Shown piece after piece: positions 10,037 to 18,285 of a DNA stretch of 50,906 bases. The position numbers and the translations under genes are program-made. The stretch covers positions 1 through 50,906 of the forward strand of contig JAFXQI010000005.1 of the NCBI GenBank assembly GCA_017527155.1, given 5' to 3'. Positions within the stretch are counted from its first letter, which is position 1. Every line of letters starts with the position of its first letter. The DNA comes from Kiritimatiellia bacterium (GTDB lineage Bacteria; Verrucomicrobiota; Kiritimatiellia; CAIQIC01; Lenti-01). Below the pieces are notes generated by a model. The model saw only the letters and a list, made by a program, of their open reading frames with translations. It was not told the origin of the DNA and ran no database searches.

Positions 10037-13000
10037 TCAGCGGCGGCGGGAGAGGGCGAGGGGGAGGAAGGGGAGGACGAGGAGGGTGAGGGCGCCGGCG
10101 ACGAGGATGCCGCCGACGCTCGCGGCGCCGATGCCGATGCGGTTGATGGCGCCGATGCCCGTCGAAAGGGCGATGGGAAGCATCCCCAGACCGGAGGCGA
10201 TGATGACCATGACGACGGCGCGGAAGGTCTGGGCGACGGCGCGGCAGATGGCGTCGGCGGGGGGCTTCCCCGCGCGTTCGAGGCGGGTCTGGGCGTCGAC
10301 GATGAGGACGGCCGGGTTGACGACGACGCCGATGAGCATGACGACGCCGAGAAGGACGAAGATGGAGATGTTCAGTCCCGCCAGGTGCAAGGCCCCCAGG
10401 ACGCCGGCGAGGGCCATGGGGACGGTCAGGAGGACGAGGAGGGGCTTGCGCCAGCTTTCGAGGATGGCCGCCAGGGTGAGGAGGGTGAGGATGACGGCCA
10501 GGAGGATGGCCTCCATGAAGTCGAGGACGGATTCGCCCAGGATTTCGCTGAAGCCGACGGGGACGAGGGTGTAGCCGTCGCCGTCGATGTGGTTTTCTTT
10601 GGCGAGGGCCTCGATTTGGGCGTTCAGGGCGGAGGCGGGGGTGCCGGCGCGTTCGTTGCCGGCCAGGAGGCAGGCGCGTTGTTTGTCGTGGCGGAAGATC
10701 ATGACTTTCTGGCCGGTGCGGATTTCCCGGGTGAAGGCGGAGAGGGGGACGGGGGGACGCCCGGGGACGGCGGGGAGGGGCAGGGTGGCGATCTGGGCGG
10801 AGCCTTGGCGTTCGGCGAGCTTGACGCGGATGTCGATGGTCTTGAGGTCTTCTTTGTAGGAGGCGGCTTCGAGGCCGTCGACGGAGGCGCGCAGGGTGGC
10901 GCCGAGAAGGGCCGGGTCGGCGCCCATGTCGGCCATGACGGCGCGGTCGGGCAGGACGCGGATCTCGGGTTTGTCGTCGCGGGCGGTGGTGTCGAGCTGG
11001 GCGATGCCCGGCAGGTTCATGGCCAGGGCCTGCAGGCGCCGGACGCGGGTGGCGAGTTCGGCGAGGTCGGGGCCCTTGAGGTTGTATTGGACGGTGGAGC
11101 CGATGCCTTCGATGTAGCCGGGGGCGGTGACGGTGGCGATGAGGTCGGGTTCGGCGCGGAGGCGCGCGCGGAGGTCTTCGAGGATGGCGGTGACGGGGCG
11201 GGAGGGGCGGTCGGCGGCGGGGCGGTAGACGATCTCGATCTGGGCGAGGTAGACGCCTTCGTTGGCCTGCCCGGCAAGGGCGTCGGCGCGTCCGGGCATG
11301 GCGAGGACGGTGACGGCATCGGGGTCGTCGCGGAGGGCCCGCGCGATGGCGAGGGTGCGCTCGGTGGTGCGGTCGAGGTCGTAGTAGTCGGGGTATTCGA
11401 GGCGCAGGAAGGCGCGGCCCCAGTCGTCGTCTTCGAGGAGGGAGAAGCCGAGGCCCCCGGCCCCGGCCTTGATGCCCGCGGCGACGAGGAAGAGCGCGGT
11501 GAGGAGGACGGCGGCGGGGACGGCGCGGCGGGAGCCGGTGCGGCGGAGCCAGGCGCCGTAGGCGACGCCCCAGCGGGCGAGGGTCTTTTCCCACGCGCGG
11601 CCGGCGCGGGCGAGGCGGCCGTCGCGGTCGGATTCGGGCCGCATGACCTTGGCGCAGAGCATGGGGGTGAGGGTGAAGGAGATGAAGATGGACGCGAGGT
11701 TGACGATGAGGGTGGTGGTGGCGAAGGGGACGAAGAAGCGGCCGACGAGGGAGGTCATCATGGCGATGGGCAGCATGACGACGACGTTGGTGCCGGCGGA
11801 GGCGAGGATGGCGACGGTCTGCGCGGAGGCGCCTTCGCGGGCGGCGGCCCAGCGGGCTTCGGGGAGGCGGGCGGCGGCGCCGGCCGCGGAGAGGCGCCGG
11901 ACGATGCTTTCGAGGACGACGATGGAGTTGGAGACGAGGATGCCCGCGGACAGGCCCATCGCGAGGAGGGTGGCGAGGTTGAGGGTGAGGCCGCAGAGCT
12001 GCATGAACCAGAGGGAGACGATGATGGTCACGGGCATGGTGACGGCGACGACGAAGGTGCTGCGCAGGTTCAGCAGGAAGGCGAAGAGGATGAGGGCGCA
12101 GAGGGCGACGGAGGAGGCGATGTCGGAGAGGGTGTTGTCGACGTTGGCCTGGACGATTTCGGCGTCGTCCTGGAGCCAGCGGAGGGTGGCGCCGGGAGGG
12201 AGTTCGCGGCGGATTTCTTCGACGCGGCGCTTGACTTCGCGGACGGTCTCGACGGTGTTGCCGTCGGATTTCTTGACGACCTTGATGGCGACGCCGGGGA
12301 CGCCGTCGAGGTAGGCGCGCTGGCGGGGCTCTTCGGTGGCGAGGCGGACGGTGCCGAGGTCGCGGAGGTAGCGGCGGGCGCCGTCGGCGCCGGCGACCTG
12401 CAAGGAGGCGATTTCGTCGACGGTGCGGCATTCGGCGTCGAACCGGACAGCCAGCTCGGTGCCGCTTTCGCGGACGCGCCCGGCGGGCACGGAGAGGATG
12501 CCGGAGCCGAGGGTGCGGGCGACGGCGGCGGCGTTGAGGCCGGCCGCGGCCAGGGCGTCGCGGTCGAGTTCGACCCAGACTTCGCGCTCTTCGCCGCCGA
12601 TGACCTTGACTTCGGCGACGCCGCGCACGGAGGCGAGGCGGTCGTGGATGCGGTTGACGGCTTCCCAGTAGAGGTCGTCGGGCGCAAGGCCGCCGGAGAG
12701 GAACATGGTGGCGATGGAGGCGGCGTTGAGGTCGAGTTTGGCGATGGAGGGGCGCTCGCAGCCGGAGGGGAGGTCGCCGACGATGGCGTCGATCTTTTCG
12801 CGGACGTCCTGGGAGGCGACGTCGACGTCGGTGCCGAGGGCGAACTCGATGAGGGTGTTGCCGGCGTTCTCGATGCAGGTCGAATATGTGTGCTTGAGGC
12901 CTTCGACGCCGGATACGGCGTCTTCGATGCGGCGGGCGACGTCTTTCTCGATGTCCTCGGGGGAGGCGCCGGGCCAGACGGTCGTGACGGTGACGTACGG

Positions 13001-13126
13001 GATGTCGACGGAGGGGAGGTTTTCGAGGGAGAGTTTTCGCCAGGAGTTGAGGCCCAGCAACACGAGCGCGATCAGGAGCGCGCTCATGGCGATGGGGCGG
13101 CGGGTGGCGGCGGTGGTCAGGAACAT
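10037..13126 (-). CDS. RND efflux transporter, inner-membrane pump (HAE1/AcrB-like)
   Basis: Inner-membrane pump of a tripartite export system. The 1029-residue protein has the RND layout: a first helix (MSALLIALVLLGL), a periplasmic porter domain (VDIPYVTVTTVWPGASPEDIEK...), six helices, a second porter domain and six more helices. It is near the usual length. In helix 4 the AcrB proton-relay pair (Asp407/Asp408 in GLLVDDAIVV) is replaced by Ser399-Asn400 (GILVSNSIVV). In helix 10 the Lys940 position reads Asn937-Pro938 (GVVVNPAVLIVD). The pump therefore lacks the classical relay residues and may use another coupling arrangement. It is preceded by its adaptor and followed by a PagL-like gene. 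Confidence 0.92.
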   Translation of the reverse strand: MFLTTAATRRPIAMSALLIALVLLGLNSWRKLSLENLPSVDIPYVTVTTVWPGASPEDIEKDVARRIEDAVSGVEGLKHTYSTCIENAGNTLIEFALGTDVDVASQDVREKIDAIVGDLPSGCERPSIAKLDLNAASIATMFLSGGLAPDDLYWEAVNRIHDRLASVRGVAEVKVIGGEEREVWVELDRDALAAAGLNAAAVARTLGSGILSVPAGRVRESGTELAVRFDAECRTVDEIASLQVAGADGARRYLRDLGTVRLATEEPRQRAYLDGVPGVAIKVVKKSDGNTVETVREVKRRVEEIRRELPPGATLRWLQDDAEIVQANVDNTLSDIASSVALCALILFAFLLNLRSTFVVAVTMPVTIIVSLWFMQLCGLTLNLATLLAMGLSAGILVSNSIVVLESIVRRLSAAGAAARLPEARWAAAREGASAQTVAILASAGTNVVVMLPIAMMTSLVGRFFVPFATTTLIVNLASIFISFTLTPMLCAKVMRPESDRDGRLARAGRAWEKTLARWGVAYGAWLRRTGSRRAVPAAVLLTALFLVAAGIKAGAGGLGFSLLEDDDWGRAFLRLEYPDYYDLDRTTERTLAIARALRDDPDAVTVLAMPGRADALAGQANEGVYLAQIEIVYRPAADRPSRPVTAILEDLRARLRAEPDLIATVTAPGYIEGIGSTVQYNLKGPDLAELATRVRRLQALAMNLPGIAQLDTTARDDKPEIRVLPDRAVMADMGADPALLGATLRASVDGLEAASYKEDLKTIDIRVKLAERQGSAQIATLPLPAVPGRPPVPLSAFTREIRTGQKVMIFRHDKQRACLLAGNERAGTPASALNAQIEALAKENHIDGDGYTLVPVGFSEILGESVLDFMEAILLAVILTLLTLAAILESWRKPLLVLLTVPMALAGVLGALHLAGLNISIFVLLGVVMLIGVVVNPAVLIVDAQTRLERAGKPPADAICRAVAQTFRAVVMVIIASGLGMLPIALSTGIGAINRIGIGAASVGGILVAGALTLLVLPFLPLALSRRR

Positions 13127-13186: not shown

Positions 13187-14356
13187 TCAGGGAGTTGCTG
13201 GGGATTCGACGGCAATCTTGCGGCCGTCGTAGAGTTGGGTCTGGCCTTGGACGATGACGGGATCGCCGGGGGCGAGGCCGGAGAGGATTTCGGCGCGTCC
13301 GGCGTCGCGGAGGCCGAGTTGGACGGGGGTTTCCCTGGCGGTGCCGTCGGGCTGCGCCAGGAAGACGACGGTGCCGGCGGCGCGGGAGAGGACGGCTTCC
13401 TGCGGCACGGAGAGGCCTTCGCGGTGCTCGAAGACGACGCGGATGTCGGCCATCGCTCCGGGCACGGCGGAGGGGGAGCCGGGCAGGAGGGCCTTGATCT
13501 GGAACACGCGCAGGCGCGGGTCGATGGCCGGGGATTTGGCGGAGACGATGGCTTCTACGGGGTCGGCGGCGCCGTTGGGGCGGATCTCGACGCGGGTTTC
13601 GCCGGGGACGACTTCGGCATAGTGGCGGGCGGGGAGGTAGGCGAGGGCCTTGAGGGAGTCGGTGCCCTTGACGAGGACGACGGGGGTGCCGGGGGCGACC
13701 ATTTCGCCGGGTTCCTTGAGGCGGGCGTCGACGGTGCCGGTCACGGGGGCGAGCACGGTGGCGTCGGAGAGCTGGCGCTCGGCGATGGCGAGCTGGGCCT
13801 CGGCCTGCGCCACCTGCTGGCGGGAGAGGTCGAGGGAGGCCTTGGCGACGGCGACTTCGGCGGCGGCGGTGTCGCGCTGGGTGGAGGCTTGCTCGAGTTC
13901 GTTGTCGGTGGCGTGGTCGGCGGCCTTGAGGCGGGCGTAGCGGTCGGCGTCGAGGGCGGCCTTGCGGGCGACGGCTTCGGCCTTGGCCACGCGGGCTTCG
14001 GCGACGGCCACCTGCGCGCGGGCCGTCGCGGCGGCTTCGCGGGCGATGGCAACCTGGTTGGACACGGTGAGGGGATCGACGGAGAAGAGCTTGGTCTTGC
14101 CGGCTTCCACGCGGTCGCCGAGATCGACGCAGACGTCGGAGAGCGGCCCCGGTATGCGCGCGGAGACGGTCGCGGAATCGACGGCCTCGAGGGTCCCCTG
14201 CACCGTCAGGGCGCGCTCGAACGGCGCGGTGCCCGCGGCCTCGGCGACGACGGGAAGCGGGGTGTCGGCCAGGGATGCCGACTCGACAGCCCCCTGCCGG
14301 CTGCAGGAGACGAGGAGGAGGGAGGAAAGGAGGAGGACGGGAAGGCGTGTGGTCAT
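13187..14356 (-). CDS. RND efflux periplasmic adaptor (membrane fusion lipoprotein)
   Basis: Bridges the inner-membrane pump and the outer-membrane channel. The 389-residue precursor has a lipoprotein signal (LLLVSC, Cys18). It continues with a beta-barrel/lipoyl half (VQGTLEAVDSATVSARIPGPLSDVCVDLGDRV), a long Ala-rich coiled-coil hairpin (about residues 90-185: AIAREAAATARAQVAVAEAR...ELEQASTQRDTAAAEVAVAKAS), the return lipoyl motif LSDATVLAPVTGTVDARLKEPGEMVAPGTPVV, and a C-terminal barrel (AGTVVFLAQPDGTARETPVQLG). The start lies only 12 bases from the left inverted repeat of the GxxExxY cassette, leaving a weak A/G-rich ribosome site (AAAGAAAAA). Confidence 0.9.
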   Translation of the reverse strand: MTTRLPVLLLSSLLLVSCSRQGAVESASLADTPLPVVAEAAGTAPFERALTVQGTLEAVDSATVSARIPGPLSDVCVDLGDRVEAGKTKLFSVDPLTVSNQVAIAREAAATARAQVAVAEARVAKAEAVARKAALDADRYARLKAADHATDNELEQASTQRDTAAAEVAVAKASLDLSRQQVAQAEAQLAIAERQLSDATVLAPVTGTVDARLKEPGEMVAPGTPVVLVKGTDSLKALAYLPARHYAEVVPGETRVEIRPNGAADPVEAIVSAKSPAIDPRLRVFQIKALLPGSPSAVPGAMADIRVVFEHREGLSVPQEAVLSRAAGTVVFLAQPDGTARETPVQLGLRDAGRAEILSGLAPGDPVIVQGQTQLYDGRKIAVESPATP

Positions 14357-14419: not shown

Positions 14420-14830
14420 TCATGGAGAGGAGGGGTTGGAAGGGTGGTAGTCGGGACGGTTGGAACAGGCTTTGATGGCGACACGGGGATAGGCGCCGAA
14501 GTTGACGAGGAGACCGAGCTGGAGGCCGGTGGCCTTGAGATAGTTGATGAGCTGGGCTTCGTGTTCGGGCAGGAGGGCTTTGCCGGCTTTCAGCTCCACG
14601 ATGATTTTTCCATGGCAGACGAGATCGGGAATGTAGGTTTTCCGGAGCCAGTTGTCCTTGTAGAGGATCCGGAGACGGGGCTGTGCCTCGAATGGGATGC
14701 CGCGGTCGCGCAGTTCCATTTCCAAGGCTTCCTGGTACACCTCTTCGGCGAAGCCGTTCCCGAGCTGGGAATAGACTTCGAACACCGCGCCGCGGATGGC
14801 ATAGCATTCCCGCTCGTAGATCATGGACAT
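14420..14830 (-). CDS. GxxExxY protein (PD-(D/E)XK nuclease superfamily)
   Basis: The 136-residue protein belongs to the GxxExxY family. The naming motif is GFAEEVY (Gly26, Glu29, Tyr32). It also shows a PD-(D/E)XK nuclease signature: Pro68-Asp69, then Glu79-Leu80-Lys81 (IVELKA), then a hydrophobic strand LQLGLLVNFG. The biochemical role of the family is not established, so a nuclease is inferred from fold only. The start ATG at 14830 is preceded by GGGGG at the end of the right inverted repeat, so the repeat supplies the ribosome site. It is full length for the family apart from a short extra Ser/Pro tail. It is unrelated in function to the efflux genes around it. Confidence 0.88.
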   Translation of the reverse strand: MSMIYERECYAIRGAVFEVYSQLGNGFAEEVYQEALEMELRDRGIPFEAQPRLRILYKDNWLRKTYIPDLVCHGKIIVELKAGKALLPEHEAQLINYLKATGLQLGLLVNFGAYPRVAIKACSNRPDYHPSNPSSP

Positions 14831-14837
14831 GGAAGCC

Positions 14838-14879
14838 CCCTTTTCAATGTCCGCGAAGCGGTTTTCATGGCCTTCAATG
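14838..14879 (-). repeat. Right inverted repeat of the GxxExxY cassette
   Basis: A 42-base arm which, read on the minus strand, begins CATTGAAGGCCATGAAAACC. The hairpin CCGC-TTC-GCGG keeps its stem; the difference from the left arm falls in the loop. Confidence 0.88.
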
Positions 14880-14882
14880 CCT

Positions 14883-15890
14883 TCATGCTCCAGCGGGTTC
14901 CGCGGCGGCGGCGGCTTCTTCCGCTTCTTCCGCGGGGGAGAGGGCGGGGAGTTCGTGGCGGGGCTGGCGGAGGGAGGGGTCGAGGGCCTGGTTGAGGAGG
15001 AGGGCGAGGCGGACGCCGCCCTTCTTGAGCTGGTCGCGGACGATGGGCAGGTGCGAGTCGATGTAGTTGTCCAGCGTCAGGTCCATCCCCGGGCGCGACC
15101 AGGTGAAGGGGACTTTCGCGCCGTCCGTCCAGCGGTAGGCCTGCTTGCGGGCGATCCAGTAGCTGTCCACCGCCCAGCGCAGCACGTCGCCGCCGCGTGT
15201 CCAGGCGGCCTCCTCCTCCGGCGTGATCTCGCGCGACAGGATGCGCGCCATGCCCAGCACCGTGTGCTTGCCGATCAGTTCGTAGACGAGGCTTTCGTCC
15301 CAGACGCTGTGGAGGCTCGGCGGACCCCAGTCCTGGGGCGTCGTCTCGTCGAAGGCGTAGTTGCGGCCGGTGAACGAGTTGACGGGCAGCATGTTGCCGC
15401 CCATGTCGCCGTAGCGGTAGGCGCAGTGCAGCGGCTGGTGCATGTCGCCGACGAGGTGGACGAGGAAGCGCAGGGCGTCGAGCCGCGCTTCGCCTTCGAG
15501 CTTGCCGGGCTCGGCGAGGTCGTCGCGCCAGCGGTAGATCTGGCTGACGACGTCGTCGCCGCTGTCGGAGACCGTCAGCGAGAACGATTCGTCGTACCAC
15601 TGCTGGACGTCGAAGTCGATGTAGTGCCAGCGGCCCTGGCGCGGATAAAGCTCCTCATAGGCCTTGTTGCCGCGGATGATGTCGGGCCAGGACGCGATTT
15701 CGTAGTCACCGATTTCGTAGTCGTCGCCGAGGATGCGGCGGAGCTCCGCCTTGGCCGCCGGCGTCAGGCGCGGCACCGCCAGGCGCGCGATGATCGAGTG
15801 GCCTTCCGGCCCCCACGCGAGGGCGGGGCGCGGCGCGGCGGCGGCCAGCGCCAGCAGGGCGGCCGCGAGGATGGTGGACGTTCGTTTCAT
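14883..15890 (-). CDS. Secreted S1/P1-type zinc nuclease
   Basis: Single-strand nuclease/3'-nucleotidase of the S1/P1 family, with three zinc sites, exported to the periplasm or outside. The signal peptide (1-25) ends ALA, leaving Trp26 as the mature first residue, as in P1 nuclease where Trp1 is a zinc ligand. Other ligands keep P1 spacing: His31 (WGPEGH), an Asp in SWPD, a His in RWHYIDF, the cluster VHLVGDMHQPLH (His, Asp at +4, His at +10) and LHSVWDE (His, Asp at +4). The length is 335 residues. It has a GGAGGA ribosome site, and the start overlaps the TolC stop (ATGA). Its place inside an efflux operon suggests a joint role in envelope or nucleotide scavenging, which is inference. Confidence 0.92.
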   Translation of the reverse strand: MKRTSTILAAALLALAAAAPRPALAWGPEGHSIIARLAVPRLTPAAKAELRRILGDDYEIGDYEIASWPDIIRGNKAYEELYPRQGRWHYIDFDVQQWYDESFSLTVSDSGDDVVSQIYRWRDDLAEPGKLEGEARLDALRFLVHLVGDMHQPLHCAYRYGDMGGNMLPVNSFTGRNYAFDETTPQDWGPPSLHSVWDESLVYELIGKHTVLGMARILSREITPEEEAAWTRGGDVLRWAVDSYWIARKQAYRWTDGAKVPFTWSRPGMDLTLDNYIDSHLPIVRDQLKKGGVRLALLLNQALDPSLRQPRHELPALSPAEEAEEAAAAAEPAGA

Positions 15891-17302
15891 TCTGCTCCTC
15901 CTTCCGGTTCCGGTTCGGTTTGCTCCGCGTCCCCCGGCGCGCGCACGATGCCCATCGCAAGCTCGAGGGCCGCGACGGCCACCGTCTCCTGGTAGCGCGA
16001 GCGGATCAGCGCCACCTGCGCGAAATCGGCCTCGGCGCGCGCGTCGAGCGCGTCCGAGACGGGCAGCAGCCCCTCGGCGGCGCGGTCGGCGCGGTCGGCG
16101 GCCTTGGCGACGGCCACGTCGGCGGCCATCCGGCGCACGGCCACCGCCTCGCGCGCATCCCGTACCTGCGCCTCCGCCGCCAGCACCCCGACGATCACCG
16201 ACAGGAACGCCTCCTCCCGCTCCGTCTCCGTGCGCCGCAGACCCGTCTTCGCCGCGCGGTAGGCCGCCGAGTTCGCGAAGCCGCTGAACAGCGTCCACGC
16301 CCCCTGGAACCCCGTGCTCCAGCCCACCGCGTCCGCCACCAGCCCCTCGCCGCCCCAGGCGTGCGTCGCGCGCACCGACAGCGTCGGCAGGAACGCGCAG
16401 AACGCCCGCCGCACCTGGTGCTCGTTCATCACCACCAGACGGTCCGCGATCGCCAGCCGCGGATGCGTCTCCAGCGCCCGCAGCACCAATTCCTCCACCG
16501 TCCCCTCCGGCATCTGCGGCCCCGCGCAGTCGCCCGAGAGCTCGATCTCCGCCTCCGGCGGCAGCCCCATCGCCGCCAGCAAATCCGCCTCCAGCACGCG
16601 CAGGCGGCGGCGGGCGCTGTCCAGCTCCGTGCGGCGCGCGAGCGCCTGGAGGTCGGCCTGGCCGCGCTCCCAGTCCGCCGCGTAACCCTCCGCGGCAAGG
16701 CCGCCGACGCGGTCCGCCAGTTTCGCGGCGGCGTCCGCCTGCGACTCCAGCGCGCGCACCGTGTCGCGCTGCGAAAGCACGTCGCAGTAGGCCGCCGTGG
16801 TGCGCAGCACGATGGCCTGGCGCACGTAGTCCGCCGCGATGCCGGCCGCCGCGTGCCCGTGGCGCGCCGCCGCCCAGAGGAACCACGTCGAGGGCGCGAA
16901 CACCGGCAGCCCGACCGTCAGCGTGCCCACCGTGTCCTCCTGCGGACCGAACGCCAGCTGCCCGCCCGACGTCATGCCCAGCAGGTTGTCGTAGTCGCGG
17001 TCCGTGTACCCCACGCCCGCCGCCACGCGCGGCAGGAACGCCGAGAACGCCGCCGTCTGCCCCAACCCCGCCAGCACCCGGTTCAGGTCCGCCTCCCGCA
17101 CCGCCGCGTTGTTCGTCAGCGCCACCCGAACGCAGTCCTCCAGCGACAGCGCCCGCTCCGGCAGCGCCTCCAGCCGGTTCCGCAGCGTCTCCCGGAACGC
17201 CTCCGTCTGCTCCCTCCGCGCCTCCGCCGGATCGAACGACCGGCACCCGGCCGCCAGCACCAGCGGCAGCAGCGCCGCCACGACAAGCGCGCGCCGTGTC
17301 AT
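15887..17302 (-). CDS. TolC-like outer-membrane efflux lipoprotein
   Basis: Outer-membrane channel of the tripartite system. The 471-residue precursor has a lipobox (LVLAAGC, Cys20). Two similar halves follow, as in TolC/OprM: LSLEDCVRVALTNNAAVREADLNRV...AYCDVLSQRDTVRALESQADAAAKLADRV and LVLRALETHPRLAIADRLV...VGVLAAEAQVRDAREAVAV...LLPVSDALDARAEADFAQVALIRSRYQETVAVAALELAMG. The ATG overlaps the marR stop (ATGA). The frame is open far upstream: the shifted reading frame of marR runs into it without a stop, giving a possible 644-residue read-through product. Confidence 0.92.
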   Translation of the reverse strand: MTRRALVVAALLPLVLAAGCRSFDPAEARREQTEAFRETLRNRLEALPERALSLEDCVRVALTNNAAVREADLNRVLAGLGQTAAFSAFLPRVAAGVGYTDRDYDNLLGMTSGGQLAFGPQEDTVGTLTVGLPVFAPSTWFLWAAARHGHAAAGIAADYVRQAIVLRTTAAYCDVLSQRDTVRALESQADAAAKLADRVGGLAAEGYAADWERGQADLQALARRTELDSARRRLRVLEADLLAAMGLPPEAEIELSGDCAGPQMPEGTVEELVLRALETHPRLAIADRLVVMNEHQVRRAFCAFLPTLSVRATHAWGGEGLVADAVGWSTGFQGAWTLFSGFANSAAYRAAKTGLRRTETEREEAFLSVIVGVLAAEAQVRDAREAVAVRRMAADVAVAKAADRADRAAEGLLPVSDALDARAEADFAQVALIRSRYQETVAVAALELAMGIVRAPGDAEQTEPEPEGGAE

Positions 17303-17821
17303 GGCCGCTCCCGTGCGGGAACCGGATACGGGGCGATGCCAGCGCCGCCGACGGCCGGCGGCCGGCTCCGGTTCAGGCGGGCGAGTTCGCCCGTGTAGGC
17401 TTCGAGGAGCGAGCGGATTTTCGGGAGCAGCTCCGGCTCGATGACGTTCATGGCCGCCTTTTCGACGTCCAGCAGATCGCGCAGCACGGCCTTGGCGAGG
17501 CGGGATCCCTTGGCGGTGATGACCATGATCTTTTTCCGCCGGTCGCTGGGATGGGGGGTGCGGCGGGCGAGCCCGTCGCGTTCCAGCGAATCGAGGAGCG
17601 AGGTCATGGTCTGGCGCGGCACGCAGCACGCCCCGGCGACCTGCGCGGGCCCGGATTCGTCCGGATGCGCGTGGATGTGGATGAGCGCGGCCGCCTTTTC
17701 GAGGGACAAGTCCCAGTGGCGGATCCGCCACGCGTACGCATGGACGATCTGCCGGAGGAACGGCAGCAGGCTGTTGCCGAAGGACGGTTCGGCGGGGGGG
17801 GGGGGTGGAAGGTTTTGTCAT
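17299..17821 (-). CDS. MarR-family regulator, frame interrupted by a C12 tract
   Basis: Winged-helix repressor probably controlling the downstream efflux operon. The core has AQVAGACCVPRQTMTSLLDSLERDGLARR (recognition helix), SDRRKKIMVIT (wing) and a dimerisation helix. In the sequence as given, the only uninterrupted start is a TTG at 17709, yielding 136 residues and losing the first helix. Reading the same frame upstream gives a typical MarR N-terminus (LLPFLRQIVHAYAWRIRHWD) up to a run of 12 C. An ATG at 17821, just below a strong promoter, is in frame with this only if the run has 11 (or 14) C; with 11 the protein has 173 residues. Read as printed, the ATG enters a wrong frame that stays open into the TolC gene. 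Either a phase switch or a base-count error. Confidence 0.8.
17794..17805. repeat. G12/C12 homopolymer in the marR start region
   Basis: Twelve consecutive G on the plus strand (C in the marR sense). It is the longest single-base run I see in the window; other runs reach 9. It sits eight codons into the gene and decides the reading frame. Confidence 0.9.
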
Positions 17822-17831
17822 CTTGTCCGGG

Positions 17832-17859
17832 ATTGTACGAAACCGGATTATTCTGTCAA
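17832..17859 (-). promoter_or_regulatory. Promoter of the marR-efflux operon
   Basis: On the minus strand, TTGACA (17854-17859), 16 bases and TACAAT (17832-17837): the closest match to the sigma70 consensus in the window. Ten bases separate it from the ATG at 17821, so the marR mRNA would start within a few bases of the start codon. GTCCGG/CCGGAC arms around the start (17825-17830 and inverted elsewhere) could be an operator, but this is weak. Confidence 0.7.
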
Positions 17860-17892: not shown

Positions 17893-17931
17893 GTTTTCCA
17901 ACCATTGGAAACGTTATTTCCAATCATTGGA
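17893..17931. repeat. Two TTTCCAAT-type palindromes
   Basis: GTTTTCCAACCATTGGAAAC (17893-17912) and TTTCCAATCATTGGA (17917-17931) are variants of the palindrome TTTTCCAATGATTGGAAAA found in a cluster at 27645-27746. Confidence 0.85.
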
Positions 17932-17958
17932 GTTGTCAGGCGAAGAACTTGCGATTTC
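17929..17958 (+). repeat. 30-base dispersed word, copy 1
   Basis: GGAGTTGtCAGGcGAAgAAC followed by TTGCGATTTC. Inverted copy at 18156-18185 and a third at 27834-27863, each close to TTTTCCAAT palindromes. Confidence 0.75.
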
Positions 17959-18155
17959 GTTCATGCCAAGCCGGGTAGGGCGGCGAGTCCCCTCGCCGCC
18001 GGAAACCGGAACGTGCAAGCGAAGGCCATGGGTGATGCGGATGCAATTCAGCCCGGACTTGGGAAAACAGGCGTCCGCACATTTCCGGCGCCGTCCTCCG
18101 GCATGACGGACACCGGCGGGCAGGGACTGCCCTCCCTACCCATCCTTGCACATGG

Positions 18156-18185
18156 GAAATCGCAAGGTTTTCACCTGCCAACTCC
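18156..18185 (-). repeat. 30-base dispersed word, copy 2 (inverted)
   Basis: On the minus strand it reads GGAGTTGGCAGGTGAAAACC then TTGCGATTTC, differing from copy 1 at only a few positions. Confidence 0.75.
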
Positions 18186-18205
18186 ATTCGGAAAACGGCC
18201 GGAAA

Positions 18206-18225
18206 TTTTTCCAATCCTTGGAAAA
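18206..18225. repeat. TTTTTCCAAT-type palindrome
   Basis: TTTTTCCAATCCTTGGAAAA, the same family as 17893-17931 and 27645-27746, closing the repeat block on its right side. Confidence 0.8.
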
Positions 18226-18285
18226 GCGGCGGGGAGCCGGACAATTCTGTCTCTGCCTGGTCGTTGCGCGGTTGTCCGCCGTGCT

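Follow-up and report, generated by a model that had tools for sequence, protein, structure and literature searches.

In an uncultured gut-type bacterium (genome G000; 3.23 Mb in 114 contigs), the marR gene that heads an RND efflux operon is one base out of frame in the assembly, and the lesion is a run of 12 C residues just inside its start codon. We consider, at a probability of roughly 0.6, that the working allele is C11, and that the twelfth C was either miscounted in the consensus or added by slippage in a transient variant; on this view the locus is not kept up as a contingency switch. The window analysed is a whole contig (C69) of 50,906 nucleotides.

The operon lies on the minus strand, in the order marR, outer membrane factor (OMF), S1/P1 nuclease, PD-(D/E)XK protein, RND adaptor, RND permease. 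The MarR-family frame that follows the tract (17299–17793) specifies 164 amino acids, including helix 1 (LLPFLRQIVHAYAWRIRHWD), and matches two Pfam models over their cut-offs (MarR_2, PF12802, E=1.5e-8; PF01047, E=2e-7), while a search of solved structures with the protein found distant MarR proteins only (E=2e-7). The OMF gene (15887–17302; OEP/TolC type with a lipoprotein signal; Pfam OEP, E=1.2e-29) overlaps the marR stop codon at its start (ATGA) and has its own Shine–Dalgarno (SD) sequence, GGGAG; it lies directly 3' of marR in 12 of 13 relatives. Next come genes for an S1/P1 nuclease family protein (14883–15890; PF02265, E=7.6e-47) and a protein of the PD-(D/E)XK nuclease superfamily (PDDEXK_3, 14420–14830; PF13366, E=9e-41), then for the RND periplasmic adaptor (MFP, 13187–14356; over the cut-off for NCBIfam TIGR01730) and the RND permease (10037–13126; Pfam ACR_tran, E=1.5e-190), for which the closest NCBIfam models are multidrug permeases, with scores below cut-off. 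The presence together of OMF, adaptor and permease, as identified by Pfam and NCBIfam, bears out the placing of marR at the head of an RND efflux operon in the preliminary description of this DNA. The sister species, RUG11196, has an identical gene order within the compared locus, which reaches into the adaptor gene.

The promoter that had been described just before the ATG is present as TTGACA (17854–17859, minus strand) and TACAAT (17832–17837, minus strand), with a 16-nt spacer and with TACAAT 10 nt before the ATG, and it is conserved in 13 genomes (the −10 element as TAYTAT or similar). The predicted leader before ATG 17821 is only about 4 nt, giving a nearly leaderless mRNA. Spacer and −10 element are covered by a palindromic operator-like site (17830–17853, minus strand; family consensus GGATARTNCAANNTTGNAYTATCC), a putative site of MarR autoregulation that fits the expected look of a MarR autorepressor site. 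Over the 13 promoters, 93 arm positions are paired, against 42.9 ± 13.0 in column permutations, and one permutation in 5000 reached 93, the centre of the palindrome having been chosen by eye; the inverted repeat is weaker in the window's genus (6–7 of 12 arm positions). In most relatives there is also a motif, approximately TYTCGAAY, just downstream of the −10 element (marR promoters L041–L050), which is absent from the window's genus and from G016. Homology between the window and the sister ends just upstream of the marR promoter, and an intergenic repeat at 17927–18250, comprising TTCCAATNNTTGGAA motifs and a GC hairpin, recurs in partial form at about 70 other places in the genome. In that the repressor gene comes first and its promoter is overlaid by a palindrome, the operon resembles autoregulated marR–efflux operons of the MarR/SlyA type, but it differs from them in the nuclease genes interposed between OMF and adaptor (together 14420–15890, and likewise placed in the sister), and its operator is putative.

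Where does marR begin? In the sister (98% protein identity) the gene is in frame from the identical ATG, behind a promoter that is identical apart from one spacer change, and with the identical ATGACAAAACCTT start (in the window ATG ACA AAA CCT TCC A, 17806–17821, minus strand). Of the 16 other family genomes, 13 contain a marR orthologue, and in 12 of these (the sister and 11 more) the promoter is followed by an ATG that lies upstream of, and in frame with, conserved helix 1; the linker between ATG and helix varies among them in length and sequence. These comparisons indicate that ATG 17821 was rightly called as the start and that helix 1 was rightly recognised as the part missing from the shorter gene; relatives starting at the downstream TTG, which would have told against this call, are excluded by the same 12 genomes. 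A start at TTG 17709 is rejected, since orthologues encode helix 1 in frame from the upstream ATG. There is in addition an in-frame CTG (17767–17769, minus strand) that might serve as a weak internal start keeping most of helix 1, and at its position five relatives (G009, G010, G011, G013 and G014) have ATG. A genome-contig search for a second genome of the same species returned only RUG11196, a viral-contig pattern scan gave no match, and a search for literature naming RUG11196 found none.

The tract itself occupies 17794–17805 (minus strand), between TTCCA, which ends at 17806, and the MarR frame, which runs from GCC at 17793 to TGA at 17301–17299. It is, as had been reported, exactly 12 C long, setting the ATG and the MarR frame one base apart, and no other homopolymer in the window is as long, the runners-up being two 9-mers. 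The frame map agrees that 11 or 14 C would join ATG 17821 to the marR frame; with 10 or 13 C, translation from this ATG would meet a stop 62 codons past the tract (17606–17604), and with 12 C the frame stays open for 634 codons, into that of the OMF. As assembled, no single frame from the ATG holds both the N-terminal helix and the MarR domain. The 12C form would not simply truncate the product: ribosomes would pass the ATGA junction unterminated, to give a fusion, while the OMF gene keeps its own SD and ATG.

The sister carries TTTCTCTCCCGTCCCC and has no tract; where the tract stands in the window it has TTCTCTCCCGTCCCC, a mixed, pyrimidine-rich stretch that is one base shorter overall. G009 has eight C residues immediately after the ATG, in frame, and no longer run was found among the other relatives in the family, the tract being absent from the sister and from all relatives compared. 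Across the MarR frame, window and sister differ with dN 0.008 and dS 0.099; a dN/dS of about 0.08 shows purifying selection, so that until recently the protein must have been selected for. In a 15-nt stretch of the linker there are five substitutions and one extra base with respect to the sister (P ~6e-5 against a background of 3%), which fits a fast-changing, unconstrained and slippage-prone stretch. The tract may have arisen recently, or it may be older and have disappeared from the sister's lineage; no outgroup gives the direction of change.

The most likely reconstruction is as follows. An ordinary, putatively autoregulated MarR repressor gene heads the RND efflux operon, its unconstrained N-terminal linker having drifted, in this species, into a run of C residues (CCC proline codons); the normal allele would carry 11 C, and the twelfth would be either a one-base miscount in the consensus or the product of slippage in the sampled population. 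The tract, the offset between frames, the orthologues with intact starts, the conservation of promoter and operator-like site and the selection on the MarR frame are observed; the repressor function, the status of C11 as working allele and the technical or transient nature of 12C are all things that we infer. In support of this interpretation, the sister has the same promoter and ATG with marR in frame and no tract, the 12 relatives with intact starts have highly variable linkers, the dN/dS of the MarR frame is low while the linker has diverged fast, and the three other intragenic C/G tracts in the genome (10–11 bases) all keep frame; the contig ends of the sister assembly, described below, point the same way.

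How unusual is such a tract? At the 69.7% GC of the window, order-1 and order-3 Markov models predict 0.11–0.15 C/G runs of at least 12, so that C12 is mildly unusual locally. It is not so genome-wide: pattern searches and selected stretches of the genome gave 41 C/G runs of at least 10, 16 of at least 11 and three of at least 12, against about seven of at least 12 predicted by scaling the window model, and there is no excess over composition. The unusual feature of C12 is its position inside a gene, which is shared (on a rough codon-usage gene call with Pfam) by only four of the 41 runs. These are the marR tract, which is the longest and the only one out of frame; a C11 at the C-terminal end of an ABC transporter ATPase gene, in frame; a C11 in a Stealth-family gene; and a C10 in a Nudix gene. 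The Stealth run (L038:1501–1511) lies in frame between CR3 and CR4 of a sugar phosphotransferase for which no close match was found in the sister. The Nudix run (L087:1493–1520; L075 in the sister) occupies codons 2–6, as ATG CCC CTC followed by the C residues, in frame, and is base-for-base identical in both species, which shows that, in this genus, a tract close to a start codon can remain stable. We also draw attention to a run of 19 G residues that fills the spacer between TTGAC and TATAAA upstream of the gene for a signal-peptide TPR protein (G000 C84:22398–22416; L028:1501–1519) and is replaced in the sister by GGGGCGGGGGAGGGGTGGG, of the same length; it resembles a phase-variable promoter spacer, and may be the stronger candidate for phase variation in this genome. 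Defective mismatch repair was considered as a cause of the marR tract and rejected, as both mutS and mutL were found in the genome.

An error of base count, which the preliminary description had offered as the plain alternative to a biological switch, is a plausible source of the twelfth C. Several contigs of the sister assembly end in artefact-like poly-C of 19–82 bases, often just beyond a C10–C15 run, which suggests that tracts of this kind are harmful to assembly from such metagenomes; the contig ends (poly-C/G in L067, L068, L069, L070, L073 and L075) probably arose in sequencing, set off by C-rich sequence. Against this, G000 has no long contig-end poly-C, and its other intragenic C10 and C11 runs are in frame, so that the assembler does not usually go wrong at them.

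A phase-variable repressor, as first suggested, in which slippage would toggle marR on (11 or 14 C) and off (10, 12 or 13 C) to give heterogeneous expression of efflux, is possible but unlikely. The tract is just inside the start codon, so that any change of a single base breaks the frame, it is the longest of the very few intragenic C/G tracts of 10 or more, and there are precedents in the bvgS C6/C7 tract (PMC1891110) and in glpK 7C and indels of mmpR5/Rv0678 (PMC9184757, PMC11072239). However, the tract has been retained in neither the sister nor any family relative, long tracts are no commoner in the genome than chance would have them, MutS and MutL are present, and the start-proximal Nudix run has not changed between the two species. 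Moreover, the proposition that slippage would switch the repressor "and so efflux" is too simple, because the 12C frame enters the OMF gene and because CTG 17769 or +1 slippage could leak some MarR. A more elaborate version, to which we give little credence, would have three states: MarR made and the pump repressed (11 or 14 C), an early stop (10 or 13 C), and no MarR with read-through (12 or 15 C); if it were true, the pump operon in this last state would be free of repression, and translation would cross the marR–OMF junction without a stop.

It is also rather improbable that 12C is real and uniform in the lineage as a fixed recent loss, MarR having disappeared and the pump operon having become constitutively derepressed. 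The consensus does have 12 C, the next common start in frame is TTG 17709, which lacks helix 1, and efflux repressors of the MarR type are commonly lost under drug selection (Rv0678; PMC9184757); yet the coding frame still shows purifying selection, with no other lesion, and the promoter and operator-like site have been kept, weaker though the palindrome is in this genus. Very unlikely, finally, is the idea that the 12C gene is decoded anyway, with +1 slippage of tRNA-Pro on CCC-C, transcriptional slippage or a start at CTG 17769 providing enough full-length MarR. A ribosome in the 12C frame would indeed enter the marR frame by a +1 shift on CCC-C, +1 frameshifting reaches as much as 1% in E. 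coli where CCC-C adjoins AUG (PMC4519876), and the internal ATG of several relatives stands where the CTG is; but the expected yield is low, CTG 17769 has no SD nearby, the nearly leaderless mRNA predicted from the promoter would favour the 5' ATG, and neither a conserved recoding signal nor the tract itself is found in relatives.

The closest parallel among known systems is Rv0678 (MmpR5) of Mycobacterium tuberculosis, a MarR-type repressor of the RND pump MmpS5–MmpL5 (PMC11072239, PMC9184757), in which, as here, indels in homopolymer tracts destroy the frame of a MarR-family repressor of an RND pump. The Rv0678 tracts, however, are of 5–7 bp and lie in the structured or DNA-binding part of the protein, whereas the present one is of 12 bp in a disordered linker; and Rv0678 variants are known from many isolates and tied to phenotype, while the marR tract is known from the sequence of one assembly. 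In bvgS of Bordetella pertussis (C6/C7; PMC1891110), as in marR here, a C tract within the coding region of a regulatory gene is such that one extra C breaks the frame, although the variation there has been demonstrated and for the present species a single allele is known. In M. tuberculosis glpK, frameshifts in a 7C tract are reversible and give rise to drug tolerance of a transient kind (PMC9184757), but glpK encodes a metabolic enzyme, with reversion shown experimentally, and marR a repressor. Among the papers listed by our literature search, none describes a MarR gene that a poly-C tract switches on and off; the MarR repressor NadR of Neisseria acts on a phase-variable promoter, but is not reported in those papers to be tract-switched itself.

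If the marR tract is not polymorphic, it stands as a caution that C/G tracts of at least 10 in high-GC metagenome assemblies can produce false pseudogenes. Should reversible switching be real, the gene would join Rv0678 (PMC9184757, PMC11072239) and bvgS (PMC1891110); and a genuine polymorphism of the tract would mean that an uncultured bacterium hedges its bets on efflux by means of a homopolymer, in parallel with Rv0678 of M. tuberculosis.
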